From: Crambe crambe
Taxonomy: Eukaryota > Porifera > Demospongiae > Poecilosclerida > Crambeidae
DNA: 64,000 nucleotides
Reading direction: 5' to 3'
Assembly (NCBI GenBank): GCA_963924555.1
Contig: OZ004584.1
Span: forward strand, 7,811,001-7,875,000
The position numbers and the translations under genes are program-made. Positions 2,811-46,256 of the stretch are shown in pieces (within the stretch, counting starts at the first letter, position 1; every line of letters begins with the position of its first letter). A model generated the notes under the pieces. That model searched no databases. It worked only from the letters and a program-made list of their open reading frames with translations, and had not been told where the DNA came from.

Positions 2811-5800
2811 ATGATAATATTATGCATCCTGTGTACCCTACTGAATTCAGGTATGGTATTGTAATATAGTGTGGAGATAGTCCAACCATTATGCCACACA
2901 AAACACTGCTACAACTTTTGAATAGAGTGCATAAAATGGCATACTATGATTCCCCTTCCATGGCTCTTTCAGGGAGTCATTTGTGCTGTAGGATGTCTTC
3001 CATTTCAGGATGAAATGACTGATTATACAAGGCCATAGACAGGCGGGGGCTTGGGACAGTGAAAATTTTACTAAATAATTACTACATGAAGATCAGTTAG
3101 TTTTAGGCTATGAATAGAGGTGGGGCTATAGTAAACACTGACAGAGGCAGCTCGGCAAGATGCATGATCTCGATTCAAAATTAAGGAGTTTTTTTTCCAT
3201 CTGGGCACAAACATTCACTCAATTCCACAAGCAACTATGGATGCATTGAACTGGGACTGGTGAGTCTTTTTCCAAGGGCAGACTAGGCAGAAATGACAAG
3301 GGGGTCACTCAGACCTAGGCATGAGTGACCGGGAGTCATCCATGCAAGCCATGAGTGCTCAGAACTTGGGAGTCAGGGAAGTCATTATAGATTAGTCAGA
3401 ATGACCAAGGAGTCACGGCGTAAGTGACCGGGAGTCATCCACGCCTAGGCATGAGTAACCAGGAGTCATCCACACCTAGTCATCGCCAAGGGAATCACTG
3501 CTGACTATGACACCGGGTCCAAGGTGAAGAGTTAACAGTTGCTACAATTGTATCTTCATTGATAGCTTATGGATAATATTCGAAAGGTGTGGACAGTTAT
3601 AGGACCTGAAGTGAATGATCCATCCTGCTCAGACCACAGACTTACTTCCAGAAGTAGAGTAGCTTCTGCTGCAAGAACAAAGCTAAAGTTCAATCATCAT
3701 CACTGCCAATGATCGAGTACACTGCATCGATTAATAGCTAAGAACTTGAATTTGCTTGCTTGTGGGAAGAATCTGTGCTACCAAGTGCTTCCCTTCCTGG
3801 CTGGATGGCTGGCTGGCTTGCTTCCTGGCTGCAAGTGGAGAGGGGAAAGGATTTATTATTGAAGGTTAGGCTGGTGCTATAAGCTATTATATAGCTATAC
3901 ATAGCTTCCTTCCAGGTATAGGCTATAACTACATGAGTTACCATTATGAATGATTAATACATTCATGGAGGCACTGTATCTAACAGGGATGGACCACCAG
4001 GGATGGCACAGTTTCATTGCATTAATTCCCCAGGAATTTGAATGATAATATTTTGCTTATACGTACCACCTGAGAAGCAATCACCACTCAACGTACTATA
4101 TTGCCACTCTAAGTGGCTGCCAACGTATTGTGCAGTGAACTCATGCCTCAATACAGACTACAGGAGATATAGCTACTGGAGACTGAAGATCTGAAATTTT
4201 AGCTAGACACCAAGGCATGGTTAATGGGATTTAGAAACCTTCAGGCCCTTGAAGTAGAGTCCTTGCATTGTGTGCATGTGTTTGACTATATGTACAGTAG
4301 CCTAAAACTTTCATGATTTTACCAAATCCAGTCACATATGGCACATGGAAGTCTCAACCTATATACCTAGTAAAGAATGTAATTGGTTCATACTCCACTG
4401 ATGAGTGCAATAGGACCTTCCTCATTCAAACATTTTTGCTGAGTGATGAATTTTGTAAATTAATTAGGTCTGTGTCTCTCATTATAATTAGCTATATTCT
4501 GTAGGAGTAACTCTAATACCTCTCACTGGTCCTGATGTGTCTTATGTTGGTGCTGAAGCTGTTTTTACCTGTAATGTACATGTGGGTGATGGTACTGCGC
4601 AGTGGCTGGTGAATGGAACACTAGATGGTGGCCTCAACATGAACATAGTGTCTGAGTTCAGTCAGATAACACATGTGGGTAACCTACTCTTCCGATATGT
4701 CCCTATGGAGTACAATGGGACCACTATCCAGTGCAGAGCTAATTCCAGTTCTGGAGATATAACCCACTCCATTATCATCACACTACTAGTACAAGGTTGG
4801 TTAACATACATTGTGTTGCGTACCACTGGCAAGCTCCTATTTATAATACACACTCACTCCCATGCTTCACATTAATTTCCCTTATGCTCTCTTTCTTGCT
4901 GATTATGTGAATTATTATAATTATAGTAGCTACATTCTGAAACTACATACCCATAAAATGATTTGGTATAATAAACAGGTCATAGTTCATACTGGCTCTT
5001 AAAGCACTCACCTCAAATGCTAAGGTGGTGCAAATAGTACATAGCTAGTTCATCTAGGTCTACTTTCTGCTATTGGTGATCTGAGCGCTACTGCACTGGA
5101 CTCAACCATCTCTCTCACCTGGAACCCTCCCTTCACCTTGGACATCACTGGTGTTGACCCTGATATCACCTACAGAATGGATGTGATCAACTCCACTTCC
5201 TCACAAGTGATACACTCACAAGGAGGGATCACTGTCACACAGTACAACTACACAACTTCACTGTCACCTGAAAGAAGAGCATGTGATGTCTTCAAATTCA
5301 CAATCACACCAGTTAACATAGTTGGCAATGGAGACAGTTCAAGCATATCTAAAGGTTTCCTTAATGTTGGTGAGTGAATGAATAAATCCATGATGCCTGC
5401 CTATACAATACCTTCTGTACACAGTTCCTTCTATCCTGAGTTGTCATGCCAACCTGATAAATGGATCATTTTCATTCCATATAAGGATGGTAAGTACCAT
5501 GCCAGGGTTTCATCTATGAATTTCACCTTGGAGGGGAAGCTCATAGATTGTGTGGCCATAGGCCATGGTGGGGGGAGGGAAGGGTGCAGAAGCCAAATGA
5601 GGGTGCATGAAGCCAAAATGCTTAAATCTAAAATAATACTTAAAAGTATTTTTTTAATGCTTGGATCCTACTTACGTAGAAGTATTTTTTATCCTAAAAG
5701 TCTTTCTTTTGACAATATCTTGAGGGGGAAGATGAGTCAGTTTGAGGGGGAAGTAAGCTGTTTGGAGGGGAAGCTTCCCCTGTATGAAACCCTGCATGCA

Positions 5801-7669
5801 GCTGTATGGCAAGTGTAACTATAGCGGCTAGTAGAATACAGACCAGTAGCTTGATATATGTTTGGCAGAGTCCCATTTCTGTCTGCAAGCAGTTTATTTA
5901 GTGTGTAATTGTTGTCGTGCAGTCAGCCATTATTTGTAGAGTTGAAGAAATCAGTATACAAAATGTGATAGCCACTGTCAATGCTGGTGATCGCACTATC
6001 ATCAAGATCACAAGTCCCAGCCTGATACATAATCGTCACTACAAAGTAACACTTAATGTCAGCAATAGTGCCGGATCAAACAACCGAAATCTGACACTGA
6101 GTAGGTTATGATGTCTGTTTGGAATCTTTTGAGAAACATTTCATTGCAGGCACACATGATGTTCAACGCACCGACATGGAAAACTCTACAATCAATATAT
6201 CTTATGTTGAGAATACTAAAGCCAAAGGAGCACTTTGTATTTTGATCTCTGTTCGTGATGGATATGTGGATTTTGATTCATCTGTGTTCATCTTCATTCG
6301 AAGAAATGAAGAACTACCGATTTCAATGCTGAGATCTGGAATGTATAATGTTGTTTGTTATGACGTGGAAAGTAATGGAAAATTACTACCTGGTGTTGGT
6401 TATCCAGCCTATGTTCAGAAGATCAATGTCATCAAAACAGGTGTGAATTGTGATCATGTCCCCTTGATAATATTCATAGCTATAAATCCTTAGGGTCAGT
6501 TCCTGTCCTTACATCTCCTCATCTTGAAAATTGTGATGTGAGATATAGCACTGAGTCTGGAAATATTCTAGCATCATGTGAATTCCCAAGTACTTCAATG
6601 GCAAGTGGTTTTCAGATAATTCTTCAGTTCAATGATCCAGCAAATGTTGAGAGTGTTCAGAGAGTAATGGTTGGTCAGACCCTTAATCGTAACACTTCAG
6701 TCTCCATCAGTGTGAACAGGAATGGAATGTATTATGCCACAATATTTGCAATATTAAATGAGACAATATTGGATGAGTTTCCATCATATTCAATGGAGTT
6801 TACAGTGAATATCCAAGGAACTGACCAAGGTCAATATAATTATAGCTAAATATATGTACTTTCATATTAATAATTCGTTTTTCAATAATAAATGGAACAG
6901 AGACAGTTACAGGAAGTGATACTGTGCCAAAAGACCTATTGATTGGTAAGCTATAGTACTAAGTGAAAATATTTGAGGTTGCTTCCCCTCCACCATCCAG
7001 AATGGATGTGGTGGCACAGAACCACTTCACTTAGCATGGGGTAAGGTTGTATGGCTGCTAGCTACTAATATGACATTGAATGGCAGCAATGATTGTTATC
7101 TGTTTATTATGAAACACAATTCTATTCCAATCACATGACTGCACTAGCTAGTAAACATACTCAACTAACATTATGTATATATATAGGTGTAGGTATTGGA
7201 GTTGCTGTCCTCATGGTAACTGCAATAGTGTTAATTGGAACTACAACTTTCATATTTCATAAGGGATGTAAATCAAAGAAAGATCATAGGTAAGTATAAT
7301 TATGATCCACATGAAAATAAGCCACTGTAAAATTAGCTACGTATAGCTTGTGCATCATAAATATTTTTGCTTGCTAACAGTTCGGAGATGAAAAGCCAGG
7401 ATGCAGAGTTTCAATTAGATCCAACTGTTATGAATAGCACCAGTTCCTCTTCAAGAGTCATGTATGAAGAAATAGCAGATCCTCCCATAGCCAGTGCCTT
7501 CAACTGCACACAATGTCCAGCTTATGAGACTACAACTGAAGTGGTCAAACATGACTATGAAGAAGTGAAACTCTATGGGAATTTAGACATTCCCACAACA
7601 CATGAAGCCTATCAACTCACAACATGTTCTGCTTATGGAGTCCCAGAGCAGTCAACAACCTCAAGTTAA
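2811..7669 (+). CDS. Ig/FN3 single-pass receptor with tyrosine-motif tail, copy 1
   Basis: Ten exons with GT-AG introns join in frame to 649 residues: 2811-2850, 4505-4795, 5058-5369, 5425-5489, 5923-6100, 6150-6440, 6494-6829, 6901-6945, 7187-7289, 7381-7669. Order: signal peptide (MIILCILCTLLNS); Ig-like domain (Cys, core Trp, second Cys in TTIQC); FN3 domain; second FN3-like domain split over two exons; two more beta-rich domains with paired cysteines; stalk; transmembrane helix (GVGIGVAVLMVTAIVLIG) followed by basic HKGCKSKKDHR; cytoplasmic tail. The tail has MYEEIADPP, CTQCP, DYEEVKLYGNL, AYQL and AYGVP. Its stalk exon (6901-6945) differs from all paralogs; a dead version of the usual one lies at 6974-7041. 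Intron 1 is about 1.1 kb longer than in copy 5, and intron 4 holds a 292-bp transposon. An AATAAA follows at 7766. It is probably a surface receptor signalling through SH2 proteins; the ligand is unknown. Confidence 0.88.
2945..4065. repeat. Insertion in intron 1 of copy 1 with degenerate GAGTCA tandem repeats
   Basis: Copy 5 intron 1 reads straight from the sequence matching 2944 into that matching 4066, so about 1.1 kb is extra here. Its central part (about 3290-3500) contains many imperfect repeats built on GGGAGTCATCCA and CATGAGTGACC. No terminal repeats or coding sequence were recognised. Confidence 0.55.
5503..5794. mobile_element. Non-autonomous DNA transposon with CAGGGTTTCAT ends
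   Basis: This 292-bp insertion begins CAGGGTTTCAT and ends ATGAAACCCTG, flanked by the direct repeat CATGC (5498-5502 and 5795-5799). The same intron in copy 4 (around 28631) has the empty site with one CATGC, which proves insertion. The inside is a GGGGAAG-rich sequence without a gene. Truncated or diverged relatives lie near 32510-32560, 56585-56670, 62630-62710 and 62895-63140. Confidence 0.85.
6974..7041 (+). pseudogene. Dead stalk exon of receptor copy 1
   Basis: This matches the juxtamembrane exon 8 of the other copies (VEVASPPPSRMDVVAQNH reading frame) but has lost the acceptor AG (TTT precedes it) and contains an in-frame TAG. Copy 1 instead has an open phase-compatible exon at 6901-6945 with good AG and GTAAGC borders. 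The replacement is inferred from the sequence and is not confirmed by transcripts. Confidence 0.7.
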
Positions 7670-7771: not shown

Positions 7772-7789
7772 ATTTTTTATGATGTCTAC

Positions 7790-9723: not shown

Positions 9724-12700
9724 ATGAGAGTGATTTTGATGCTGTGTTCTGTGTCTGCAATATTACAATCAGGGAACTCAGGTAGTGTTACTGTGTGCAC
9801 ACATGCATAACAAGGGGATTTTAGGCAATTCCAGAGGAATATGAAACAAATAAAACAAGTTTTATTTCAGAATTAAGTAGCACTTTAGAAGGATTCCAAA
9901 GTGCTGATAAAATATAACCGGCAAGTTAGCATTGGCACCAAAATTAATATGAAGGAGCTTTAATATGGGGCTTTTCCTTCACATAACTAGCTATTTCCTA
10001 TATAATAATAGAAAGTGTAAAGAAAAGTGAAGTAAAATGGGGTCCTTAACTGATACAATTTGGGCACAAAAATTGTATGGGGAGTCTGATATGGTATGAC
10101 AGGTTCAAATTACCACAACATACAGTGTACTTGATAATAATTATACTGATGCTGTGTATTTGTATAGGAGGTGTACAAGTTCTCAGTGGTCCTACTGTGT
10201 CTTACGTTGGTGCTAGAGCCACTTTTACCTGTTCTGGTGGTGATACTGTGAGTGTGCAGTGGCAGTTGAATGGAACACTAGATGACGGTCTCAACATGAA
10301 TATGGTGTCTGAGTTTGGTCAGATATCACGTGTGGGTAACCTACTCATCCGTGATGTCCCTATGGAGTACAATGGGACCACTATCCAGTGTAGAGCTAAT
10401 TCCAGTTCTGGAAGTATCACATACTCCAATATCATCACAATGCTAGTACAAGGTTAGTACAATACACATGTGGCCCATGCATAAGATAACCCCCCACTGA
10501 TTTTCAGCAACATTAGAGTTGAGATAGTCAGTGATGGTGATTGAACATCACATCACACGGTAGCAAATGGCTATGATTAATGTGAACAGTTACGTATGCA
10601 CATGCACACGTTGATAACTTACACACATTGAAATTCATTAGGTCAACTTTCTGTTGTTGGTGACCTAAGTGCCATTGCACTGGACTCAACAATCTCTCTC
10701 ATCTGGAACCCTCCCTTCACCTTGGATATCACTAATGTCGACCCTGATATCACCTACAGAGTGGATGTGATCAACTCCACTTCATCACAAGTGATACACT
10801 CACAAGGAGGGATCATTATCACACAATACAACTACACAACTTCACTGCCACCTGAAAGAAGAGCATGTGATGTCTTCAAATTCACAATCACACCAGTTAA
10901 CATAGTTGGCAATGGAGACAGTTCAAGCATATCTAAAGGTTTCCTTAATGTTGGTGAGTGAATGGATAAACCCATAATGCATGCCTATATAATACCTTCT
11001 ATACACAGTTCCTTCTGTCCTGAGTCATGATGCCAACCTGATAAATGGATCATTTTCATTCCATATAAAGATGGTATGTAGCTATATGGCAAGTGTAACT
11101 GCAGCTGCTGATCTCAATACCTCAGAAATAGTTTCTCTCTACTTAGAAAGAGAAAATCACGTGATCATATAGTGCATATGGCATCCCTACAGAAGAAAGT
11201 GTGCATTGATCCTGGTAGCTACATAATGCACTTGCATGTGTAGGTTTATACTCCCGTGTCTCCTGGCTGCAGTTAATAGAGCTACATGTAACATAAGGAC
11301 TTTTTTTGACTGTTATATTGCAGACTGCCATGGTGTGTGGAGTGAATGTCATGGACATTTCTGTTTTGAACTATGATGATGAAGTAATCAATGCACAAGA
11401 TATGCTAGCCACTGTCAATGATAGTGATCGTACAATCATTGAGATTACAAGTCCCAGCCTGAAACTGAATCATCACTACAATGTAACACTTAACATCAGC
11501 AATAGTGCTGGATCAGACACTATAAATATGAATCTAAGTAGGTTATGATGTTTGTTTGGAGTCTTGTTGTTTATTCTGTGGGAAACACTTCATTGCAGGT
11601 ACACATGATGTTCAACGCACTGATATGGAAAACTCCACTGTCAATATATCTTATGTTGAGAACACCAAAGCCAAAGGAGCACTCTGTATCTTGATCTCTA
11701 TTCATGATGGACGTGTGGATTTTGATTCATCTGTGTTTGTCTTCATTCGTAACGAAGAAGTGCCTATTTCAATGCCACTTTACTTGAGGCCTGGAAAATA
11801 TGATGGTGTGTGTTATGATGTGGAAAGTAATGGAAGATTACTACCTGGTGTTGGTTATCCGGCCTATGTTCAGAGAATCAGTATCACCCAAACAGGTATA
11901 GAGAAATCTTTTCATCCTCCCTTTATTATTCACATCTAAATGTACAGGGTCAGTTTTCATCCTTAGATCACTTCATCTTGAAAACTGTGGTGTGAGTTAT
12001 AGCAATGGAAATATTCTAGCATCGTGTGAATTCCCAAGTATTTCATTGGCAAGTGGTTTTCAGATAATTCTTCAGTTGAATGATCCAGCAAATGTTGAGA
12101 GTGTTCATAGATTGATGGTGGGTCAGACCCTTGATCGCAACACTTCAGTCTCCATCAATGTGAACAGAAGTGGGACCTATTATGCCACGATATTTGCAAT
12201 ACTAAATGAGATAATATTGGATGGGTTTCCATCATATTCAATGGAATTTACAGTGAATGTCCAAGGAACTGAACAAGGTCAGTGATACATAATAGTACTT
12301 TGAAAATTGTACTATACCATGTGATATACGTAGTTGAGGTTGTTTCCTCTCCTCCAACATCCAGAACAGATGTGTCGGCACAGAACCACTTAGCATTGGG
12401 TAAGGTTATATATAGCTAGCTATGAGGTGTGGCTGCTAGCTACTAACAGTTTCTGTGTGAATATGAATGGCAGCAAGGATTTATAGTGACTGTTGTCTGT
12501 TTATTAGAATGCAATCCTGTTATGAAAACGTTTTCCCCACTTGCATAGCTATGTAGTTGTTCTTTCGATATATTTATTTTCAATCACATGTGCATACACA
12601 TGTGATTGCTTAGTTGCTAGATATATCATGCATGTGGTAAACATAACCAACCATAACATTTGTATCATAGGTGTAGGTATAGGAGTTGCTGTTGTCATGG

Positions 12701-13111
12701 TAACTGCAATAGTGTTATGTGGAACTATGATTTTATTATTTCATAAACAATGTTCAAGCAAAGATCCTAGGTAAGTTAGTATGTGGTCCACATGTAATAA
12801 GTCACTGCATAATGTGTATCATCACTTACAGTTCAGAGAAGAAAAGCCAGAATGTGGAGTTTCAATTAGATCCGAATGGCATGACCACAAGTTCCTCATC
12901 AAGAATCATGTATGAAGAAATAGCAGATCCTCCCAGTGCCATCAACTGCACACAATGTCCAACTCGTGAGACTACAACTGAAGTGGTCAAGCATAACTAT
13001 GAAGAAGTGAAACTCTATGGGAATTTAGACATTCCCACAACACATGAAGCCTATCAACTCACACTATGTTCTGCTTATGGAGTCCCAGAGCAGTCAACAA
13101 TCTCAAGTTAA
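9724..13111 (+). CDS. Ig/FN3 single-pass receptor with tyrosine-motif tail, copy 2
   Basis: Ten exons join in frame to 668 residues: 9724-9781, 10168-10452, 10642-10953, 11009-11073, 11324-11537, 11599-11895, 11948-12277, 12334-12399, 12671-12770, 12832-13111. The signal peptide MRVILMLCSVSAILQSG differs in type from copy 1. The Ig domain has Cys in ATFTC, Trp in VQWQLNG and Cys in TIQC, with N-glycosylation sequons (NGT, NSS). FN3 contains ISLIWNPPF and the conserved PERRACDVF. The stalk VEVVSSPPTSRTDVSAQNH precedes a helix GVGIGVAVVMVTAIVLCG and a basic FHKQCSSKDPR. The tail has MYEEIADPP, CTQCP, YEEV, YGNL, YQL and YGVP. Exons and introns are nearly identical to copy 4, so the pair is a recent duplication or has been homogenised by gene conversion. 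Membrane receptor role is inferred from topology and tail motifs. Confidence 0.88.
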
Positions 13112-16173: not shown

Positions 16174-16280
16174 CTAGTCTGGTGAACCATCCCCGGCCAC
16201 TTCCGCAGCACTGGATGTAGTGCTGGTGATACAATACATCCAGTGCTGCGGAAGTGGCCGGGGATGGTTCACCAGACTAG
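16174..16280. repeat. Perfect 46-bp inverted repeat (hairpin)
   Basis: Arms 16174-16219 and 16235-16280 are exact complements with a 15-base loop, and both outer ends read CTAGTCTGG/CCAGACTAG. A second hairpin with the same ends lies at 47001-47078. The right arm is open in the HIRAN reading frame, the left arm brings a stop codon. Confidence 0.95.
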
Positions 16281-20768: not shown

Positions 20769-20834
20769 CACAACGGTTGTCAAGAAAATGCTCAGATTAT
20801 CAACTGCCACGTGATTTCCGCTAATTTATCTGTT

Positions 20835-21046: not shown

Positions 21047-24434
<3,388 letters not shown>

Positions 24435-30200: not shown

Positions 30201-30635
30201 GTATAGGAGTTGCTGTTGTCATGGTAACTGCAATAGTATTAAGTGGAACTGTGATTTTATTATTTCATAAACAATGTTCAAGCAAAGATCCTAGGTAAGT
30301 TAGTATGTGATCCACATGTAATAAGTCACTGCATAATGTGTATCATCACTTACAGTTCAGAGAAGAAAAGCCAGAATGTGGAGTTTCAATTAGATCCGAA
30401 TGGCATGACCACAAGTTCCTCATCAAGAATCATGTATGAAGAAATAGCAGATCCTCCCAGTGCCTTCAACTGCACACAATGTCCAGCTCGTGAGACTACA
30501 ACTGAAGTGGTCAAGCATAACTATGAAGAAGTGAAACTCTATGGGAATTTAGACATTCCCACAACACATGAAGCCTATCAACTCACACTATGTTCTGCTT
30601 ATGGAGTCCCAGAGCAGTCAACAACCTCAAGTTAA
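27263..30635 (+). CDS. Ig/FN3 single-pass receptor with tyrosine-motif tail, copy 4
   Basis: Ten exons join in frame to 671 residues: 27263-27326, 27707-27994, 28187-28498, 28558-28622, 28869-29082, 29141-29437, 29490-29819, 29872-29937, 30195-30294, 30356-30635. It has the same domain order as copy 2. Exons 5 to 10 differ from copy 2 at few positions, and introns are likewise almost identical. The Ig exon differs more (AVFTCFNGRDIVSVQWLVNG against ATFTCSGGDTVSVQWQLNG in copy 2), with one additional codon. Signal peptide MRVILMLCSVSAMLQSG. The tail has MYEEIADPP, CTQCP, YEEV, YGNL, YQL and YGVP. The helix is GVGIGVAVVMVTAIVLSG. This concentration of change in the Ig domain within a recent duplicate is what a ligand-binding domain under diversifying selection would show, but I have not measured it. 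Confidence 0.88.
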
Positions 30636-31306: not shown

Positions 31307-34300
31307 ATGGAATCAAAGATGATAATATGCATCCTGTGTACCCTACTGAACTCAGGTATGATAGCTATTGTAATATAGTGTGGAGATAGTCCAACCATTA
31401 TGCCACACAAAACACTGTTACAACTTTTGAATACAGTGCATGGAATAGCACACCTGAGAAGCAATTACCACTCAGCATACTATATTGCCACTCTAAGTGG
31501 CTGCCAACATATTGTGCAGTGAACTTTATGCCTCACACGGACTTGTGTCAGGTAGCTACAGAAGATATACTGGAGACTGAAGATCTGAAATTATAGCTAG
31601 ACACCAAGGCATGGATTCTATGGGATTAGAAACCTTCAGGCCCTTGGAGGATTGTGTGCATGTGTAGTATAACTCTATGTGCAGTGCTAATACTTTCATA
31701 ATTTCCAAATCTGGTCACATATGTATGCATGGCACATGGAAGTCTCAACCCACCCAGTAAAGAATATAATTGGTTCCTACTCCACTGATGAGACTTTCTT
31801 CATTCAATAAAATTTTTGCTGAGTGTTGAGTAATTTGTGAATTAGGTCTGTGTTTACTTTGTAGGAGTACCTCTAATACCTCTCACTGGTCCTGATGTGT
31901 CTTATGTTGGTGCTGAAGCCGTTTTTACCTGTAATGTGGGTGATGATACTGTGCAGTGGCTGGTGAATGGGACACTAGATGATGGCCTCAACATGAACAT
32001 AGTATCTGAGTTCAGTCAGATAACGCGTGTGGGTAACCTACTTTTCCGATATGTCCCTATGGAGTACAATGGGACCACTATCCAGTGCAGAGCTAATTCC
32101 AGTTTTGGAGATATAACCCACTCCATTATCATCACACTACTAGTACAAGGTTGGTTAACATATGCATGCATTGCAGTGGCGGCTCAGGGTGGGGGCGAGA
32201 GGGACTAGAGCCCCCCCCCCCCCCACTTTTTAGCAGGTGGGGGCTGAGCCCCCCCACTTTTTTGACCCATTGTATAATTGTCTAACTGCAGCAGTAAAGT
32301 CTACTGTCTAGTCACTAGCTAATGATGTTGCATATTAGTGGCTGCATTAATTTTTTTATGTTCATAAGGTTTATACAGCTGATTGAAAGAAATGTAATCC
32401 CCTCCCTAATAGAGTATTGGAATTTGTGGAGAATTAGCCAACAATGAGTCCTCCAAAAAAAAGTAGATTCCTCCAAAAAAAAAAAAAAAAAAAAGTACGG
32501 CCACGTGATCAGTGAGCTTCCCTCCCAAAGTGAAATTCCTAGATGAAACCCTGATTAGTGACTGCATTATTGATTGGCCACAACATGTAGAGAATCAAAA
32601 CCTTCATGGATAATATTATAGCTCATCGGGAGTAGTCATCGATGCGCAATTTTGAGCCCCCCCACCCACTTTTTGGGGTCCTCAGCCACCCCTGCATTGT
32701 GTTATAGCATACCACTGGCAAGCTCCTATTTATAATGCACACTCACTCCCATGCTTCACGTTGATTTCCCTTATGCTCTCTTTCTTGATATTGATTATGT
32801 GATTATTATTATAGCTATAATACGTATACATTCTGAAACTACCCATACAATGATTTGGTATAGTAAACATACTGGCTCTTAAAACATTCAAAGGCTAAGG
32901 TGGTGACAATTAGTGCATCGTTCATCTAGGTCTACTTTCTGCTGTTGGTGACCTAAGTGCCACTGTACTGGACTCAACCATCTCTCTCATCTGGAACCCT
33001 CCCTTCACCTTGGATATCACTGGTGTTCACCCTGACATCACGTACAGAGTGGATGTGATCAACTCCACTTCCTCACAAGTGATACACTCACAAAGAGGGA
33101 TCAATATCACAAAGTACAACTACACAACTTCACTGTCACCTGAAAGAAGAGCATGTGATGTCTTCAAATTCACAATCACACCAGTTAACATAGTTGGCAA
33201 TGGAGACAATTCAAGCATATCTAAAGGTTTCCTTAATGTTGGTGAGTGATCAATGGATAAACCCATATTATAATTTAATATTATATGTACCTTCTGTGCA
33301 CAGTTCTTTCTGTCCTGAGTCGTCATGTCAACCTGATAAATGGATCATTTTCATTCCATATAAGGATGGTAAGTATTTACCATGCAGCTACTAATCTCAT
33401 TGTCTCTGCAGTAGCTGGCTATTTCCCCTTTACTTAGAGAAAATCATGTGACTGTATTACCTTTAAAAGAGAGCTAGTGTGCACCTCATATAGCTACACA
33501 GTTCACTTATGTTACTGTTCCTGCAGTTACATAAATGAGGACTTTTTTCATCCATGCATGCAGTCTGCCATGGTGTGTGGAGTGAATATCATGGACATTT
33601 CTGTTTTGAACTATGATGATGAAAGAATCAATGCACATGATATTATGATAGTCACTGTCAATGATAGTGATCGCACTATCATTGAGATCACAAGTGCCAG
33701 CCTGCAACTGAATTATCACTACAATGTAACACTTAATATCACCAATAGTGCTGGATCTAACACTATAAATCTGAATCTAAGTAGGTTACGATATTTATTT
33801 GGAGTCTTTTTTTTTACTCTGTGGGCAACACTTCATTGCAGGTACACATGATGTTCAACGTACTGATATGGAAAACTCCACTGTCAATATATCTTATGTT
33901 GAGAACACCAAAGCCAAAGGAGCACTCTGTATCTTGATCTTTGTTCATGATGGACGTGTGGATTTTAACTCATCTGTTTTTGTCTTCATTCAAAGAAATG
34001 AACAAATGCCTATTCTATACTTGAGGCCTGGAAAATATGATGTTGTTTGTTATGATGTGGAAAGTAATGGAAGATTACTACCTGGTGTTGGTTATCCAGC
34101 CTATGTTCAGAAGATCAATATCACCCAAAAACGTATGAGAATCTCTTTTTATCCTATGCTATTATTATTCACATCTAAAATGTACAGTGTCAGTATTCAT
34201 CTGTAGATCACTTCATCTTGAAAACTGCAGTGTGAGTTATAGCACTGAGTCTGGAAATATTCTAGCATCATGTAAATTCCCAAGTACTTCAATGGCAAGT

Positions 34301-35358
34301 GGTTTCCAGATGATTCTTCAGTTCGATGACCAAAGAAATGTTGAGAGTGTTCATAGAGTGATGGTTGGTGAGACCCTTGATCGCAACACTTCAGTCTCCA
34401 TCAGTGTGAACAGAAGTGGGACCTATTATGCCACAATATTTGCAATATTAAATGAGACAATATTGGAAGAGTTTCCATCATATTCAATAGAGTTTACAGT
34501 GAATATCCAAGGAACTGAACAAGGTCAGTGATATTATGGACTGTTTTTGATTAGTGAAAATGTTATGATAACATTATTATAGTTGAGGTTGATTCCTCTT
34601 CTCCACCATCCAGAATTGATGCGGCACAGAATCACTTATCATTGGGTGAGGTATATAGCTGGCTAGGCAGTCTCTGTGTGTATATGCTTATTCCACTTGC
34701 AAAGTTGTTTAGCTACCTCCAATTCAGCTTTTGATAATGTTTATTTTTAGAGCAGTTCAACCATGCATGCAGCAGTGCAATCATGCATGCACATGTGCAT
34801 GGTTGCATTGCTGAGTATTATTATCAAAAGCCTGCATGTGGTAAACACCTCACAACCAGCCCAGCATTCTCAACAAACATTAATTTGTATTATAGGTGTA
34901 GGTATTGGAGTTGCTGTTGTCATGGTAACTGCAATAGTATTATGTGGAACTACAATTTTCCTGTTTCATAAACGATGCAAATCAAACAAAGATCCTACGT
35001 AAGTATATAGCTTTTGTCCACATGAAAATAACCCTCTGTAGCTATGATGTGTATCAAAAAATGTCACAGCTCAGAGAAGAAAAGTCAGAATGTGGAGTTT
35101 CAGTTAGATCCAAATGGCAAGACCACAAGTTCCTCATCAAGAGTTGTATATGAAGAAATAGCAGATCCTCCCAGCACCTTCAACTGCACACAATGTCCAG
35201 CTTATGAGACTACAACTGAAGTGGTCCAGCACGACTATGAAGAAGTGAAACTCTGTGGGAATTTAGACATTCCCACAACACATGAGGCCTATCAACTCAC
35301 AACATGTTCTGCTTATGGAGTCCCAGTACAGTCAACAACCTCAAGTTACGTAATATAA
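31307..35358 (+). CDS. Ig/FN3 single-pass receptor with tyrosine-motif tail, copy 5
   Basis: Ten exons join in frame to 669 residues: 31307-31355, 31865-32149, 32930-33241, 33304-33368, 33564-33780, 33842-34132, 34188-34523, 34583-34645, 34896-34998, 35070-35358. Signal region MESKMIICILCTLLNSG; an internal ATG five codons on is equivalent to the start of copy 1. Ig, FN3, split FN3-like and two further domains are as in copy 1, its closest relative in exons 1-2 and upstream flank. The stalk VEVDSSSPPSRIDAAQNH is of the copy 2/4/6 type. The helix GVGIGVAVVMVTAIVLCG is followed by HKRCKSNKDPT. The tail has VYEEIADPP, CTQCP, YEEV, YQL and YGVP; YGNL is replaced by CGNL (KLCGNL), and the end is extended by SYVI. 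Intron 2 carries a 521-bp transposon that copy 1 lacks. Confidence 0.88.
32174..32694. mobile_element. 521-bp non-autonomous transposon in intron 2 of copy 5
   Basis: Ends are CAGTGGCGGCTCAGGG and, inverted, CAGGGGTGGCTGAGGA, flanked by CATTG (32169-32173, 32695-32699). The matching intron of copy 1 shows the empty site with one CATTG. Inside are C-runs, an A-run and a nested fragment of the CAGGGTTTCAT family near 32510-32560. CAG ends resemble hAT elements, but the duplication is 5 bp, not the usual 8. Confidence 0.8.
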
Positions 35359-35909
35359 GCAACCAGTTCCAAAACATAACACAAAAACACACTGTTTTCA
35401 TAACTACACTCATTAGTATAGAAGATTTTTTTCTGGTACACTATTCAGTAAAGAGTGCATCCCTGACCATTTAGTTTAATTACCTTATAATTATGCTGAC
35501 TGAATAAACAGTACACCCTTCCCTATAAGGTAAGGATTAATCTCAGGAAACAGTTTCAATGTAAGTTTTATGGCAGTTGCAAATCTTAGCTACTAGCTTG
35601 TAGTTTTAGATATAACTAGCTATTATGGTACATAATGTGGAAGGGTAACAAATTTAAACATCATCAAATATTTCAAGTGGAGTCATTCATCAGCATACTT
35701 GCAGGCAGTATACCAAGTATATTATAGGCAATGCCACACCCATCTTGTCTAACTGACCCTTCCATGCAGTAGCGGGGGGGAGGGTGCTAAATACGTGACC
35801 AGTCGCTCCACCACTGGAATATTGATCCTCTAAGCCTCTGAGTATAATAATGTTAGCTGTAAGTTTTGATATTGCATTCAGATCTGAGATGAAATCGCTC
35901 AAACTGAAG
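35359..35909. other. Spacer between copies 5 and 6
   Basis: No gene was seen. AATAAA at 35503 probably ends copy 5. The sequence just before 35910 resembles the 5' flank of copies 1, 5 and 7 (GATCTGAGATGAAATCG against GATCTAAAGATGGAATC). Confidence 0.5.
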
Positions 35910-38900
35910 ATGGTAATATTATGCATACTGTGTACCGAACTGAATTCAGGTATCTTACGTATGTACAAATAATTAGAAATATGAGGGCTGTAATTAATCA
36001 GTCCCAGGTAAAAATCAAATAGCCACTTCTTAAACATATTAGACTAGCTATCTTGTCATGTCTAGCACTATTGATTGGTGTTAATTTAGTTATATATTAT
36101 GTAGTTCTGGGTTAGGCTCTATAGGGGTTTAGCCTCAATGAGCATTGGTCGCTTCATCCTGGGAAGAGTGGAGTGCTTTCAATAGGCTTATCTATAATGA
36201 TAATGTACATTGTAGTGAGGCACAAATTCTTGAAAATCTGCATGATGAAGCTACTGGTACATTTATCCTCCTTAAATAGACCCACATTGGTATTCAGTAT
36301 CAGAAATCTCCATTGATGTTGACTCCCCCAGGAGATTCTTGTTGAAATGTCAGTGGTTTGTTTCATAAAGCTAATTTTTATGAGAACTAATTCTATTGAT
36401 GTTAGCTGAGAGAAGTCAGCAGAATATATAGCTTGATATGCTGTACTGTTTGTTGATTTTCAGACTATATGTAGCTAGGATGAACTAGAAATTGTATTTT
36501 CTAGTAATGAGGTGTGGTTAGTTACATGAATAAACAATTGTTGGTCATCCATGTGGGAAAACCAGCCACTCAGATATTTTTTTATCTTCTATATTTTTAA
36601 CCCTTTGACTGATGCTCTATAGCTAGGTCCTACGTATGATGCCTGAGAATCGGCTCTTATTTATCTAGCATTTTCTTGAGAAAAAGAATAAACTACATAC
36701 GTACAGTATTTCCAGTCATCCCACACACTATTAGTACTGGTAATTTCAAGTGCTGGTAAGATAGCAAGGTAGCGTAGATAACTTATTGGGTTTGTATTTC
36801 TAAGCACTTAGTTTTGACACCATGGGTCTCGATCTGCTGTTGCACAAAGTTTCAATGGAACTTCAGCTGATATGTTTTGCTATAAGCGGTCACATCATCA
36901 GTTGATGATCAATTATAAATTGGAGTCATGTAATAATGTGTGTCATATATTTGTAGGAGTAACTCAGCTAACTCTCACTGGTTCTACTGTATCTTATATT
37001 GGTGCTACAGCCACTTTCACCTGTTCTGATGGTGGTAATACTGTGAGTCTTCAGTGGCTGGTGAATGGGACACTATTGAACAGCTCCAGCATGGATATAG
37101 TGTCCGAGTTCAGTCAGATAACGCATGTGGGTCATCTACTCTTCCGTGATGTCCTCAAGTACAATGCGACCACTATCCAGTGCAGAGCTAATTCCAGTTC
37201 TGGAAGTATCACATACTCCAATATCATCACACTACTAGTACAAGGTTATAGCTAATTATTATACACAAACATTATTATACAAACATGGTTTACAACCTTA
37301 GCATCTATGCATGCAACTATAGCAATCATAGATGATATGAATTATTATAGAGTTGCAAATGGAGCTAGTAGTATGTATCTTAAAATGTTTCAAGGTTGGT
37401 TGATCACTTGAATCAGCTAAATGCTCTGTAGTAGCTCTTGGACCCCAACCTCAGCTGAGGTGTTACCATGCAAGTACATATAGGTCTACTTTCTGCTGTT
37501 GGTGACCTAAGTGCCACTGCACTGGACTCAACCATCTCTCTCACCTGGAACCCTCCCTTCACCTTGGATATCACTGCTATTGACCCTGACATCACCTACA
37601 GAGTAGATGTGATCAACTCCACTTCCTCACAAGTGATACACTCACAAGGAGGGATCACTATCACACAGTACAACTACACAACTTCACTGTCACCTGAAAG
37701 AAGAGCATGTGATATCTTCAAGTTCACAATCACACCAGTTAACAGAGTTGGCAATGGAGACAATTCAAGCATATCTAAAAGTTTCCTTAATGTTGGTGAG
37801 TGAATGGATAAACCCATATTATAATAATTATACAGTATCTTCATAAATCTGTGCACAGTTCCTTCTGTCCTGAGTCATGATGCCAACCTGATAAACAGAT
37901 CAAATTTTTCATTCCATATAAGAATTGTAAGTCTGTATGGTAAGTGTAGGTATAGCTGCCAATAGACTACATCTCATGAACTAGGTGAGAGTAGCTCTAG
38001 AAATGACCTGGAGGGCTTATAATAAGTGATTCACCAGTGCATGAGAGAGAACATAGCAACTAGCTATAGTAGCTACCAGCACTAACACTCAGCCATGCAG
38101 CTTGGGGACAAACTATTTCAAAAAGGAAGTCTTAGAAGTATATACTTAACTTTAGCTAGCTATTGTTGAAATCTGACTTTATAGTAGCTGCATCCATGGT
38201 TACGATAGTTTATGTAGCTATGTAACCCCCATCCAGTTATTAAGATCATGTTTATAATAATTATAGCTATTATAATAATTATCAGTTTGTCTCTTCTTCC
38301 TTTGCTGTCATATATGCAGTCTGCCATGATTTGTAGAGTACATGTGCTGGGCATTTCAGTTTTGAATTATGATGATGAAGAAATTAGTGCAAAAGATATA
38401 CTAGCCACTGTGAATGTTGATGATCGCACAGTCATTGAAGTTACAAGTTCCTACTTGATACTGAATCGTCACTACAATATAACACTTAATGTCAACAATA
38501 GTGTTGGATCAAACACTCTAAATCTGATGCTGAGTAGGTTATGATATTTTCTTGCAAACTTTTGTTTAAACACTTTTGGTATTTCAGGTACACATGATGT
38601 TCAACGCACTGATGTGGAAAACCACATAGTAAATATATCTTATGTTGAGAACACCAAAGCCAAAGGAGCATTCTGTATCTTGATCTTTATTCGTAATGGG
38701 CGTGTGCATTTTGAGTCATTTGTGTTTATCTTCATTCGAAGAAATGAAGAACTGCCTATTTCAATGCTGAGATCTGGAATGTATAATGTTGTCTGTTATG
38801 ATGTGGAAAGCAATGGAAGATTACTACCTGGTGTTGGTTATCCAGCCTATGTTCAGAGGATCAGTATCACACAAACAGGTATAGAGAAATATTTTCATCC

Positions 38901-40265
38901 TTCCTTGATATTTTTCACATCTAAATGCACAGGGTCAGTTTTCATCCGTAGGTCACTTCATCTTGAAAACTGTGGTGTGAGTTATAGCACTGAATCTGGA
39001 AATATTCTAGCATCATGTGAATTCCCAAGTATTTCGATAACAAGCGGTTTTCAGATAATTCTTCAGTTCAATGACCCAGCAAATGTTGAGAGTGTTCAGA
39101 GAGTGATGGTGGGTCAGACCCTTGATCGCAACACTTCAGTCTCCATCAGTGTGAACAGAAGTGGGATCTACTTTGCTACAATATTTGCAGTACTAAATGA
39201 GACAATATTGGATGAGTTTCCATCATATTCAATGGAGTTTACAGTGAATATCCAAGGAACTGAACAAGGTCAGTGATAATAATGATACAGACTATAGCTA
39301 AGTGAAAATATTTGATTATAATCATATATAGTCAAAGTTGCTTCTTCTTCTCCTCCATCCAGAATGGATGTGACACAGAACCATTTAGCATTAGGTAAGG
39401 TTATAAGGCAGAGACACGATCAGTTACCATAGCTAATGTGGTAGAGGATTATATAACTACTAGCAGCTATAATTACCCTCTATAATTATGAATAATAGTT
39501 AGCAAAGTTCTATATTGTTTATTAGGATCAAAGCTATATTTTTCCCCACTTGTCATAGCTAGAATGTTTATCAAACTTCAAATTCAGCATTGATCATGTG
39601 ATTGCTGGATACATCTTAATTGGTATCCAAACCTCATTATCTGAATGAAATTCAAAGATTTTTTACTTTGCATTAATCAGAATATTCATTGAAAATACGT
39701 TGTCTCACTAGCTAATCTAGACACTTCAATTATCTGAACAAGGGTAACTTCATGCATGGTATTCAGATTAATGAGGTTCTACTGTAGTTAATAACTGGTC
39801 ATTCCATCAACATTATAGGTGTAGGTATTGGAGTTGCTGTTCCCATGGTAATTGCAATAGTGTTATGTGGAACTACAATTTTCCTACTTCATAAGCAATA
39901 CAAATCAAACAGAGATCCTAGGTAAGTTAGTGTGTTAATGTGATCCACATGAAATAAGCCACTGTATCATTTATGTAGCTTAGCATTTCACTTTCTCTAA
40001 CAGATCAAAGAAAAGTCAGTTTCAATTAGATCCAACTGTTATGAATAGCACCAGTTCCTCATCAAGAGTCGAAGTAGCAGATCCTCCCAGTGCCTTCAAC
40101 TGCACACAATGTCCAGCTTATGAGACTACAACTGAAATGGTCAAGCATGACTATGAGGAAGTGAAACTCTATGGGAATTTAGACATTCTCACAACACATG
40201 AAGCCTATCAACTCACACTATGTTCTGCTTATGAAGTCCCAGTGCAGTCAACGACCTCAAATTAA
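35910..40265 (+). CDS. Ig/FN3 single-pass receptor, copy 6, tail without YEEI
   Basis: Ten exons join in frame to 658 residues: 35910-35949, 36957-37244, 37484-37795, 37859-37926, 38320-38533, 38588-38878, 38933-39268, 39332-39394, 39819-39921, 40004-40265. Signal peptide MVILCILCTELNSG has a Glu inside the hydrophobic run, which may weaken it. Ig (ATFTC, LQWLVNG, TTIQC), FN3 (ITYRVDVINST, PERRACDIF) and the other domains follow. The stalk is VKVASSSPPSRMDVTQNH, the helix GVGIGVAVPMVIAIVLCG. In the tail the membrane-proximal motif MYEEIADPP is changed to VEVADPP, so that tyrosine is gone. YEEV, YGNL, YQL remain and AYGVP is now AYEVP. A MITE-like sequence with ends ACCTCATTATCTGAA lies in intron 8 (about 39620-39785). 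Confidence 0.86.
39622..39786. mobile_element. Probable MITE in intron 8 of copy 6
   Basis: The inverted sequences AACCTCATTATCTGAAT and ATTCAGATTAATGAGGTT face each other about 130 bases apart, the right one ending TTCTACTGTA. It is similar in design to the CAGTGGAACC elements further right. Borders are approximate. Confidence 0.45.
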
Positions 40266-40470
40266 TATATTTAGCTACGTATAATAACAAACAGATGGCC
40301 AAATATCAAAAACAACACATACACACACTGTTTCCATAAATTTCTTCTTCCATTATTATAATGTCTAGAGTATGTCCCTAATATCACCATAATATGCCTG
40401 CCTGCATGTGATAAACAATTATAGCTAATTCTCATATTTAACCATGCAGCCATCATTCCATTAACAAATC

Positions 40471-40510
40471 TTTATAGCTATAGGTGTAGGTAGCTATGGT
40501 AACTGGCACA
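40471..40510 (+). pseudogene. Remnant of a receptor transmembrane exon after copy 6
   Basis: ATAGGTGTAGGTAGCTATGG followed by TAACTGG is a shortened match to the start of the transmembrane exon. With its flank it is the inverted counterpart of 41880-41995. Confidence 0.55.
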
Positions 40511-41690: not shown

Positions 41691-41810
41691 TTAACTTGAG
41701 GTTGTTGACTTTACTGGGACTCCATAAGCAGAACATAGTGTGAGCTGATAGGCTTCATGAGGAACTGGTGCTATTCATAACAGTTGGATCTCTGCATTCA
41801 GCTTTGAGCT
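41691..41810 (-). pseudogene. Internally deleted receptor tail exon
   Basis: On the minus strand this begins like the tail exon (GATCCAACTGTTATGAATAG), then jumps from the serine-rich segment to the AYQL part and ends at the family's TAA. About 150 bases with CTQCP, YEEV and YGNL are missing. It lies downstream of copy 7 and has no complete gene of its own. Confidence 0.75.
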
Positions 41811-41879
41811 ATTAGAGCAAGTGATTTATTAAGCTACATAATTATTATACAGAGCTGGATCACACAATAATTATGACTA

Positions 41880-42102: not shown

Positions 42103-45100
42103 TTAACTTGAGGTTGTTGACTGCACTGGGACTCCATAAGCAGAACATGTTGTGAGTTGATAGGCTTCATGTGCTGTGGGAATGTCTAAATTCCCATAGA
42201 GTTTCACTTCCTCATAGTCATGCTTGACCACTTCAGTTGTAGTCTCATAAGCTGGACATTGAGTGCAGTTGAAGGCACTGGGAGGATCTGCTACTTCGAT
42301 TCTTGATGAGGAACTGGTGCTATTCATAATAGTTGGATCTAATTGGAACTGGCTTTTCTTTGATCTGTTAGAGAAAGTGAAATGCTAAGCTACATTTCAT
42401 TTGGATTGTACTAACTTACCTAGGATCTCTGTTTGATTCGTATTGCTTATGAAGTAGGAAAATTGTAGTTCCACATAACATTATTGTAATTACCATGGGA
42501 ACAGCAATTCCAATACCTATATATACACCTATAATGTTGATGGAATGGCCAGTTATTATGAGAACTACACCATGGTTACCCCTGTTCAGATGCCCAGATT
42601 GAAGCTTGATAAACATTGCTATTCAACTGTGCTAGTAGCTAGATATAACAATATAACCTAATGATAAGTGGTTCTATGCCACATATCACTGACCTTGGTC
42701 AGTTCCTTGAACATTCACTGTAAACTCCATTGAATATGATGAAAACTCATCCAATATTATCTCATTTAATATTGCAAATATCGTGGCATGATAGGTTCCA
42801 CTCCTGTTCACACTGATGGAGACTGAAGTGTGGCGATTAAGGGTCTGACCAACCATCACTCTCTGAACACTCTCAACATTTGCTGGATCGTTGAACTGAA
42901 GAATCATCTGAAAACCACTTGCCATTGAAGTACTTGGGAATTCACATGATGCTAGAATATTTCCAGACTCAGTGCTATAACTCACATCACAATTTTTAAG
43001 ATGAAGTGATCTAAGGATGAAAACTGACCCTGTACATTTAGATGTGAATAATAATCGAGGGAGGATGAAAAGATTTCTCTATACCTATTTGGGTGATATT
43101 GATCCTCTGAACATAGGCTGGATAACCAACACCAGGTAGTAATCTTCCATTATTTTCCACGTCATAACAAACAACATTATACATTCCAGATCTCAGCATT
43201 GAAATAGGCAGTTCTTCATTTCTTCGAATGAAGACAAACACAGATGAGTCAAAATCCACATGTCCATTATGAATAGAAATCAAGATACAGAGTGCTCCTT
43301 TGGCTTTGGTGTTCTCAACATAAGATATAGTAACTGTGGAATTTTCCACATCAGTGCGTTGAACATCATGAGTACCTGCAATACCAAAATTTATTTGAAC
43401 AAAAGACTGCAAACAAACATCATAACTTACTCAGTGTCAGACTTATAGTGTCTGATCCAGCACTATTGCTGACGTTAAGTGTTATATTGTAGTGACGATT
43501 CAGTATCAAGTAGGAACTTATAATTTCAATGACTGTGCAATCACTGTCATTGACAGTAGCCATCATATCTTGTATATTGATTTCATCATCATCATAGTTC
43601 AAAACAGAAATATCCACAACCTTTACTCCACAAGTCACAGCAGACTGCATAGATGATAATCCCCAATGTAAGATGTAAATAATGAGTGCTCCAATAATCC
43701 TATTTCCTTAAGAGGGCAGCATGAAATTAACCTTTATCATATTGATAATAATTTTTTTAGTCAAGCTAGTCATATAATGTGTACATTTATTTCACATCAT
43801 CAGCATTGCACCCTATAGAGATCTATTGAGCCCTCTGCTCACCTCTAGAGCTACTGCTCTCTCTTAGTTATTGAGATGATTGAGATGTATAGTCTATTCT
43901 TGCCATAACATACAGCTGCATGGTATACTTACCATCCTTATATGGAATAAAAATGATCCATTCATCAGGTTGGCATTATGCCTCAGGACAGAAGGAACTG
44001 TGTACAGAAGGTATTGTATAGGCATGCATATGGGTTTATCCATTCACTCACCAACATTAAGGAAACCTTTAGATATGCTAGATTCACTTCCATTGCCAAC
44101 TATGTTAACTGGTGTGATTGTGAATTTGAAGACATCACATGCTCTTCTTTCAGGTGACAGTGAAGTTGTGTAGTTGTATTGTGTGATAGTGATCCCTCCT
44201 TGTGAGTGGATCACTTGTGAGGAAGTGGAGTTGATCACATCTACTCTGTAGGTGATGTCAGGGTCGACATTAGTGATATCCAAGGTGAAGGGAGGGTTCC
44301 AGGTGAGAGAGATGGTTGAGTCCAGTGCAATGGCACTTAGGTCACCAACAGCAGAAAGTAGACCTACATATGAAATATGTATTATTGCTAAGCAGGAAGT
44401 GAGGCAAGTAATTGTATTACAATGTCATTCCCGTTTGTATGTCCATCTATACGTTGGTAACAATGCATTATTCATGACATAAGTTAGACAGCAGGTTCAA
44501 ACTGACTTCAGCAGTGAGAGCAAGAGAGCTACCATATGGCGCTTAATTTTTGAGGAGCACAATTTTTGTGATTTTCACGCATTTAATGTAGCGCAAAAGT
44601 TAAGCTCCACAAAAAAGCTGAGAGCTTAATGCCTCAAGGAAACGCGTTCTTGATCAAGATCACTGAACAGCGAGACAAGTGGAGACTCAGACAATTCCAG
44701 TGGAATAAGAAGTCTTACAGATCCTTAGGCTCTCAGCAACAAGTCTCAGACTCTGCAGTGTTGTCTACATTCATTCTGCTTGGCTTGGCACACCCATGTT
44801 TAATGAATTTCTTGAGCAGAGCCTTCTGAAATATAACATAGGCTGATTGTGCTAAATTCATAATAATGTGGTATGTAAAGACCACAACTTGACTTAAAAC
44901 AACAACACAAAATTGAGGTACCATACACCCTACACATACATCCGCCTTCATTCCTGCGAGGCCCTCTTCATGTTTACAAAATTTAATGTATGCCCTATAG
45001 TTATTATGCTATAGGATGCTCGCTCGCTCGCTATCAAATGTTGCACATTGAATCAATCAACTACACATACTAACTTCATACTGGCTCTTGAATTCACCTC

Positions 45101-46256
45101 AGAGGTGGTGGCAATTATTGTTCTCAATCATCTTCTTCCAGTTATGGTGACGTCATCAGCTAAAGTTTCGCTCACCACAATGCTTTTCCCTAGTTATATA
45201 GGCTCTAACTTCAGATTTGCTGTTGAGTTATGTATAAGTTGGGTGTTCCAGCCAGGCAGCTATAATAGATAAGCCAAGCACTGACAATCCATGCACTTAG
45301 CAGCTCCTACCACAAAATAAACTGACCAAATGCTATAGAAAAAAATCAAGTTGGACCATGTACAATATATGCACAGGGCACTACTAATTAAGGACATGTA
45401 CATATGCCTGGGACATTTTGGAGTGTAGATCTATACAATTTCTATGAGTCATGTCAACTCACTCGCTCACTGCAATTATCAAAATATTTCATGTGTATTT
45501 TTTTCAGAATGTACTAGCTCATATAAACACATGATCTATATCAGGAAAGAGAGCATAAGGCCAGGAAATGTGAAGCATGGGTGAGTGTATGTTCTAGTAA
45601 TAAACCATAATATTTTGTATGAGCTATTATATCATATGCATGCATGCATGTATTAATTAACCCACCTTGTAATAGCATTGTGGTGATATTGGAGTATGTG
45701 ATATTTCCAGAACTGGAAGTAGCTCTGCACTGGATAGTGGTCCCATTGTACTCCATAGGGACATCACGGATGAGTAGGCTACCCACACGCGATATCTGAC
45801 TGAAGTCAAACACCACATTCATGTTGAGGCCATCATCTAGTGTTCCATTCAACAGCCACTGCACACTCACAATATCATCACCAGTTTGACAGGTAAAAAC
45901 AGGATCAGCACCAACATAAGACACAGCAGGACCAGTGAAAATTATTTTAGTTACTCCTGAGAGACACAGACCTAATATACAAAAACTCATCACTTTATTT
46001 GAATAAGGTCCCATTAGCTAGCTGATTCAATACACACACACATCAGTGGAGTAGGAATCATTGTCAATACTTTACTGGGATGAATTGAAACTTGCCAATG
46101 CACCATAGCTAGCTATGTGACGGGATATTTGGGAAAACAAGAAATTATGAAAGTATTGGCATGCACATAGCTATACATACGCACATCATTAATACTACAC
46201 CTACCTGAGTTCAGTAGGGTACACAGGATATGTAATATTATCATCTTCGATTCCAT
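42103..46256 (-). CDS. Ig/FN3 single-pass receptor, copy 7 (inverted), no stalk exon
   Basis: Nine exons join in frame to 643 residues: 46256-46205, 45956-45666, 44363-44052, 43997-43933, 43644-43431, 43375-43085, 43029-42694, 42528-42420, 42364-42103. Signal peptide MESKMIILHILCTLLNSG. Ig (PVFTC, VQWLLNG, TTIQC), FN3 and following domains are as in the family. The stalk exon is reduced to about 25 bases lying directly after the donor of the previous exon. As the neighbouring exons share phase 1, the product reads straight from the last ectodomain into the helix GVYIGIGIAVPMVITIMLCG. The tail has IEVADPP in place of MYEEIADPP, as in copy 6, then CTQCP, YEEV, YGNL, YQL and YGVP. Its tail exon is nearly identical to that of copy 6, and the two genes are convergent. 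An in-frame ATG at 46014 reads directly into the Ig exon. Confidence 0.85.

Follow-up and report, generated by a model that had tools for sequence, protein, structure and literature searches.

Described systems closest to the array

In the allorecognition complex of Hydractinia, the Alr family is given as 40-41 clustered genes, possible pseudogenes included (PMC11876637, PMC11999971); one of these accounts puts the number at 40 Alr or Alr-like genes, of which Alr1 and Alr2 are highly polymorphic and are thought to encode homophilic adhesion molecules (PMC11876637). The genome of the sponge Crambe crambe (assembly of 143 Mb in 119 contigs) contains a likewise large, clustered family of immunoglobulin (Ig) superfamily receptors (approximately 27 units or fragments over about 250 kb), which differ from the Hydractinia proteins in having one Ig domain plus fibronectin type III (FN3)-type domains. 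Seven of these genes lie in the 64,000-nucleotide stretch analyzed here, hereafter the window (contig OZ004584.1, referred to as C6, positions 7811001-7875000). The array may work like recognition-receptor arrays such as the Hydractinia complex, a likeness that does not imply membership of one family.

Among sponges, Geodia cydonium has surface proteins with Ig-like domains (a receptor tyrosine kinase and adhesion molecules) that resemble the present receptors by description, but the former carries a kinase, unlike the receptors here, and the descriptions include neither a large array nor a shared tail (PMC12018476, PMC11999971). Grafting in Amphimedon is reported to end in fusion of autografts and rejection of allografts (PMC5450542), and a comparison with three other sponges, these represented by transcriptomes, reports Ig and fibronectin domains as more enriched in A. 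queenslandica (PMC4704026). No published description of the present receptor family was found among titles and abstract openings, a coverage that takes in few subscription journals. To our knowledge, the genes behind sponge graft rejection are not settled.

The C. crambe genes probably encode phosphotyrosine-coupled recognition receptors and belong to a polymorphic birth-and-death array, with expression, ligand and recognition role that we infer from sequence. The original prediction, made from the letters of the window, had proposed a seven-gene cluster of Ig/FN3 receptors with SH2-docking tails, and the cluster is still a good candidate for a system of self or microbe recognition.

Seven receptor genes in the window

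Seven gene models, built by hand and by script from the DNA sequence, fill positions 2811-46256 of the window, g1 to g6 on the plus strand and g7 on the minus strand; g3 has a class B ectodomain and the other six genes are of class A. The features, in window coordinates, are as follows.

2811..7669, +: g1, 10 exons, 649 amino acids, with all six tyrosine sites
2811-2850, +: g1 signal peptide exon
4505-4795, +: g1 Ig exon, type example of the outer domain
5058-5369, +: g1 FN3 exon, with the lowest nonsynonymous divergence (dN) of any of the six exons in comparisons of the class A genes of the window
5425-5489, +: g1 E4 exon
5923-6100, +: g1 E5 exon
6150-6440, +: g1 E6 exon
6494-6829, +: g1 E7 exon
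6901-6945, +: g1 E8 exon
7187-7289, +: g1 transmembrane exon, the helix interior without a charged residue
7381-7669, +: g1 tail exon, with sites YEEI, PAY, YEEV, YGN, AYQ and SAYG
9724..13111, +: g2, 9 exons, 646 amino acids, without tyrosine site 2 (PAY)
21047..24434, +: g3, 665 amino acids, class B ectodomain, C-terminus of the tail frameshifted
24187..24507, +: g3 exchange tract, comprising tail core and 3' flank
27263..30635, +: g4, 9 exons, 649 amino acids, without tyrosine site 2
31307..35358, +: g5, 9 exons, 648 amino acids, without tyrosine site 4 (YGN)
35889..40265, +: g6, 9 exons, 644 amino acids, without YEEI
41694..41768, -: orphan tail-exon fragment, 80% identical to residues 71-95 of the g1 tail
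42103..46256, -: g7, 9 exons, 643 amino acids, inverted, without YEEI

As had been predicted, all seven paralogs splice into open frames (643-665 amino acids), each ended by a single stop. The introns are all GT-AG and follow one phase pattern common to the seven genes, and the exons recur in register when the DNA of the window is compared with itself. This recurrence, together with ratios of nonsynonymous to synonymous proportions of difference (pN/pS) below 1 in every tested exon downstream of the Ig exon (0.41-0.66 in the window, 0.47-0.67 in the array), indicates that the models are coding genes and not chance frames. The g1 and g3 models contain an extra small exon ahead of the transmembrane exon (no systematic search for it was made in the other five). 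From a point inside the Ig exon onward, g2 is nearly identical to g4. The third gene is not like the other six, with which it had been grouped: it represents a divergent class (35% identical to g2 in E6, 21% identical to g6 in E7), its E5 and E6 are fused in one exon, and the reading frame of its tail is shifted close to the end.

The predicted domain order of signal peptide, Ig, FN3, split FN3-like domain (E4+E5), E6, E7, transmembrane helix and tail was recovered. The ectodomain is composed of one Ig and four FN3-type domains, one of the four (E4+E5) being assigned by motif only. The full-length g1 protein gave no Ig or fn3 match in Pfam at E <= 1; these matches emerge with isolated exons, at single-exon scores below the curated cut-offs. 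Depending on the family, between 4 and 10 of the 23 Ig exons matched each of five Pfam Ig families (best E 7.6e-6), one Ig exon scored in full reached 20.7-20.8 bits against a cut-off of 21.8, and residues C21, W31 and C74 are invariant across the 23 aligned Ig exons. At a threshold of E <= 0.1, 16 of 23 FN3 exons matched fn3, with a best E of 4.9e-4. Profiles of the two exons matched PDB sequences weakly (best E 0.0021 for Ig, 0.021 for FN3). Structure prediction of E6 and E7, the two ectodomain units that had been left unassigned, yielded FN3-like sandwiches in both cases; the predicted fold of E6 had no Foldseek match at E <= 0.001. Because the profile homology between E6 and E7 is weak (probability 8%; the two were aligned separately) and the E7 profile has no homology to the FN3 exon, the FN3 assignment of both rests on predicted fold.

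With these two domains FN3-like, the domain order, originally put forward as one without a described match, is less unusual than claimed. An Ig domain followed by several FN3 domains is a common receptor design. Receptor phosphatases of the RPTP-mu type likewise have an Ig domain and then four FN3 domains, and receptor phosphatase FN3 domains are among the matches of the predicted folds, but g1 differs from this type in having neither a MAM nor a phosphatase domain by Pfam.

Each of the seven ectodomains carries 12-20 N-glycosylation sequons, and each model has a short hydrophobic first exon and a single hydrophobic stretch (by eye), in none of the seven with a charged transmembrane helix. Open spliced models, an Ig/FN3 ectodomain, a signal peptide and a single transmembrane helix together support the receptor nature originally assigned to these genes. 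A receptor tyrosine kinase is ruled out: all seven models stop in the tail exon, and no kinase domain was found in g1 by Pfam.

The tail and its exchange between genes

The kinase-free tails of the window genes bear four to six tyrosines, at sites that an alignment of 20 of 23 tails (three shortened tails left out) resolves into YEEI, PAY, H-x-YE, YGN, AYQ and SAYG. Sites 1, 2, 3 and 6 are present in classes A, B and C and in the single locus read on contig C8. Besides the absences listed above, g6 has SAYE in place of the SAYG pattern, and g3 is without the last two sites owing to its frameshift. YEEI, which we take to be a Src-type SH2 site, or YEEV occurs in 7/7 window tails, and YxN, presumably a Grb2-type site, in 6/7. 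SH2 docking by the tail tyrosines is plausible from these motifs. At least 135 SH2 exon matches are found in the genome, and C18 carries two SH2 domains next to a single tyrosine phosphatase domain, all on one strand, an arrangement like that of tandem-SH2 phosphatases.

Other parts of the genome also contain such domains. Closely paired SH2 exons occur in a run at C5:1.417-1.656 Mb, possibly representing expanded tandem-SH2 proteins. At least 183 tyrosine phosphatase domain matches were obtained genome-wide from 150 scored of 601 candidates, many of them in tandem-like runs (C9:2.6-3.4 Mb, C12:0.07-3.2 Mb, C13:3.59-3.87 Mb).

The tail core has evidently been exchanged between genes whose outer exons are divergent. 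Between classes A and B (g3 against six genes), synonymous divergence (dS) is 0.92-1.35 in the Ig and FN3 exons, whereas the mean dS of the tail core (over pairs with finite dS) is 0.113 between A and B, at the level found within A (0.093) and within B (0.130). The shared tract of g3 begins at the YEEI codon and runs to about 24507 in the 3' flank; over this tract, DNA identity to the class A genes is 80-90%, compared with only 67-72% in the alignable upstream exons.

Contig C8 yields 34 of the 68 matches of the tail query, at approximately 30 places. At the locus read there, a different ectodomain (Ig_3 match in Pfam, E 3.3e-7, above cut-off) and a transmembrane exon precede the same tail; its two outer exons have no Pfam match. 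The tail is thus common to two or more receptor families. The tail core of class A compared with that of C8 has dN 0.34 and dS 1.61 (dN/dS about 0.2), which indicates that it has also been under purifying selection over longer time.

Extent of the array and copies elsewhere

The cluster is not limited to the seven genes of the window. Units and fragments, counted by hand from tblastn exon queries against C6:7711001-7975000, extend over C6:7.719-7.968 Mb, and 22 of the approximately 27 have both Ig and tail exon matches. One unit is an Ig exon alone, and another has a broken FN3 exon and a stop-containing E6. A 10.6-kb duplication bearing g5 and g6 (window 31075-41642) recurs 45 kb upstream at C6:7796635-7807156 with 96.9% identity. 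Clustering, repeated duplication and decay, all claimed for the seven genes, are borne out by the array, this segmental duplication and the disrupted copies.

Further copies are located on C6 at 5.0-5.15 and 6.47 Mb and on C9, C14 and C18. Contig C13 carries relatives of the Ig exon, and two tail searches found no tail there. At C14:699501-705500, FN3-type exons resembling E6/E7 lie upstream, on the same strand, of an exon that matches the Death domain (PF00531) at E 1.5e-4, narrowly missing the cut-off; this ectodomain module may there be joined to a different intracellular domain.

Variation of the outer domain

The Ig exon is the least constrained by point estimate, with overlapping intervals. 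Across the 15 pairs formed by the six class A window genes, the Ig exon has a pN/pS of 0.99, compared with 0.47 for FN3, 0.66 for E5, 0.41 for E6, 0.49 for E7 and 0.60 for the tail. In the array, taking exons more than 50% identical to g1 and longer than 75% of the g1 exon (16/26 Ig, 16/25 FN3, 14/15 E5, 15/19 E6, 15/17 E7, 17/23 tail), the Ig value is 0.79 (bootstrap 0.60-1.07) and the tail value 0.66 (bootstrap 0.51-0.85), with 0.55 for FN3, 0.67 for E5, 0.47 for E6 and 0.58 for E7. Of the predicted contrast between a variable outer domain and a conserved tail, the first half holds in so far as Ig ranks highest in both sets, but the tail is not below the FN3-type exons. Change in the Ig domain peaks at the exon start, at every second residue ahead of the first cysteine and in a stretch that follows it; residues round the second cysteine are nearly fixed.

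When three recent gene pairs were pooled and the Ig exon was compared with the other five exons in a test of positive selection, amino-acid change was commoner in Ig (odds ratio 3.9, p = 2e-6). Between g2 and g4, differences per 100 bases fall from 8-18 to 0-6 within the Ig exon, a drop suggestive of conversion; since homogenization stops inside this exon, conversion can leave Ig diversity intact.

Gene content in another assembly

The full-length g7 protein retrieved no relatives from a large protein collection, apparently because the collection holds single-exon frames, and exon alignments were used instead. Exon profiles found members on two contigs of another assembly (2,013,234 and 1,221,456 bases), which are taken to be of the same species because some of their exons are identical to array exons over 93-144 residues. 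Ig-exon clusters matching the array at 98.8% or more number 7 of 14 on the longer contig (one of them, P0043, on two contigs) and 5 of 12 on the shorter; the remaining 7 + 7 match it at 91% or less. The shorter-contig matches (5/5) all lie left of C6:7754.2 kb, and the longer-contig matches (7/7) right of 7760.3 kb. A duplicate contig, C66, is 99.89% identical to C6 over 8.8 kb, up to C6:7756165, within the same interval as this split, and then diverges; the 4 kb past the break (C66:7001-11000) do not resemble the array, and a search of C66 for the tail of the receptor gene located there found none. On the simplest reading, C6 would be a mosaic of two haplotypes with different receptor genes.

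Five of the 14 unmatched Ig clusters were searched genome-wide, with top matches at 76, 64, 78, 80 and 84% identity; as none exceeds 85%, these five exons are absent from the present genome. For the remaining nine, comparison covered the array and seven further loci, and some window exons are themselves missing from the lists of that protein collection. The tails agree more closely: three from the shorter contig have best array matches of 99, 98 and 90%, seven of eight from the longer contig 100, 100, 94, 99, 100, 100 and 100%, and the eighth is 90% identical to a copy on C14. One tail (P0007) agrees with that of g3 up to the frameshift and then continues intact (by eye). Chromosome copies seem to differ in receptor gene content, presumably by haplotype. 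Uniform low polymorphism, which had been regarded as incompatible with the predicted system, is not seen, five of five tested Ig exons of the other assembly being absent here.

Eight tails on other contigs (P0024-P0031), 40-46% identical to g1, retain the first three sites or more, and their clusters have as many as 17 members. The best match of P0028 in the present genome is distant (E 8e-6, 55% over 62 residues), and P0028 and its near relatives are therefore probably from another organism, in which the module is multi-copy. Ig exons at 30-46% identity occur on mostly small contigs from several sources.

Proposed function and alternatives

In the preferred explanation, the window covers one section of an array of single-pass receptors that evolves by birth and death, each receptor having an outer Ig domain on a stalk of four FN3-type domains above a transmembrane helix and a short non-catalytic tail. 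The ligand, be it a receptor on another cell, a graft partner or a microbe, would bind mainly via the outer Ig domain; clustering would lead a cytoplasmic tyrosine kinase to phosphorylate the tail tyrosines, and the phosphorylated tail would recruit SH2 proteins. A single tail module supplies many receptors, recombination copying it between genes, and it occurs under a different Ig family elsewhere as well. Haplotypes would differ in gene content because duplication, conversion and loss keep altering the ectodomain set of each individual; a recognition repertoire would be expected to show such a difference. That the array is the long-sought sponge histocompatibility locus or its core, with haplotype-specific sets of Ig ectodomains on one exchangeable tail that also serves a second Ig family elsewhere, is possible but rather doubtful; a single signalling cassette would in that case read out an entire diversified surface repertoire.

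NCAM, contactin and Dscam-like adhesion molecules are also constructed from Ig domains on an FN3 stalk, and FN3 domains of such proteins are among those matched by the predicted folds of E6 and E7. The array might accordingly be an expansion of adhesion or tissue-patterning receptors that sort cell types homophilically, with a tail that signals contact and not non-self. However, ongoing birth and death, an Ig-only unit and disrupted copies would be unusual for developmental adhesion molecules, as would Ig exons present in the other assembly but not in this one and multi-copy relatives, from another source, that have no close counterpart in this genome; we consider this explanation unlikely. 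Quite improbable is a mostly decaying array, made of young duplicates without selected function that are kept open by youth and conversion: fragments and disrupted copies, the g3 frameshift, the absence of individual tyrosine sites from g2, g4, g5, g6 and g7 and the mild constraint on the tail (pN/pS 0.66) are consistent with it, but the seven window genes all keep open frames across 640 codons, pN/pS in the FN3, E6 and E7 exons of the array is 0.47-0.58, and the tail is constrained between class A and C8.

The gp130 and G-CSF receptors share with the present genes an Ig domain with several FN3 domains, a single transmembrane helix and a kinase-free tyrosine tail, and receptors of this kind would couple soluble ligands to a JAK-type kinase. 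The present genes differ in forming a tandem array and in having neither WSxWS (0/7) nor, within 40 residues of the start of the tail, a box1-like PxP motif (0/7), patterns by which a class I cytokine receptor was rejected; the copy number of cytokine receptors is, moreover, far lower than that of the array, and a cytokine-receptor-like function is very improbable. The vertebrate paired receptors, to which the original prediction had likened the cluster, are comparable in part. KIR, LILR and Ly49 genes form tandem arrays that undergo conversion, as here, and KIR and Ly49 haplotypes differ in gene content, as is suggested here; on the other side, a charged transmembrane helix is found in 0/7 window genes, and an ITIM-like (immunoreceptor tyrosine-based inhibition motif) hexamer, [ILVS]xYxx[ILV], in only 4/7 tails (g1, g2, g4 and g5), by pattern only. 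The vertebrate type was rejected by pattern, a short-tailed partner with a charged helix being found in none of the seven window genes.

Several observations weigh against phosphotyrosine-coupled recognition receptors. The immunoreceptor tyrosine-based activation motif (ITAM; YxxI/L-x(6-12)-YxxI/L) was found in 0/7 window tails by pattern search, so classic Syk coupling is not indicated, and ITAM coupling, another difference from KIR, LILR and Ly49, was rejected. Constraint on the tail is weak, both within class A of the array (pN/pS 0.66) and between classes A and C (tail core dN 0.33, dS 0.54). Positive selection on Ig is unsupported, the ratio of nonsynonymous to synonymous differences (Nd:Sd) not differing significantly from that of the other exons (p = 0.43, three pairs), and much of the amino-acid excess in Ig comes from g2/g4, with its conversion boundary inside the Ig exon. 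C66, the only leftover duplicate contig seen, is 99.89% identical to C6 before it diverges. The graft transcriptome of Amphimedon is reported to have no enrichment of cell-adhesion genes, and the words "receptor", "immunoglobulin", "fibronectin" and "SH2" are absent from the main text of that report (PMC5450542).

Other features of the window

Apart from the receptor genes, the window contains the following.

2045-2214 (running into TCTG) and 23071-23171: long GT repeats beside array genes (by eye)
16178-16594, +: open reading frame with a HIRAN domain match (E 1.6e-5)
16848-20825, -: several long minus-strand frames between g2 and g3, one piece weakly like the TNP-like RNase H domain of transposases (PF21787, E 0.038)
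58866-59195, +: frame similar to the housekeeping gene MMADHC, next to the array (E 1.1e-4, below cut-off)

Scans of the window gave no match in Rfam and no tRNA by ARAGORN.

Implications

The analysis provides a mapped candidate locus and a tail peptide signature that picks out members of the family. Together with the signs of gene-content difference, these make it possible to test genotype against graft rejection. If one tail is indeed shared as proposed, an early animal would have built its repertoire by swapping ectodomains over a single SH2-docking cassette, in a genome rich in SH2 and tyrosine phosphatase domains.

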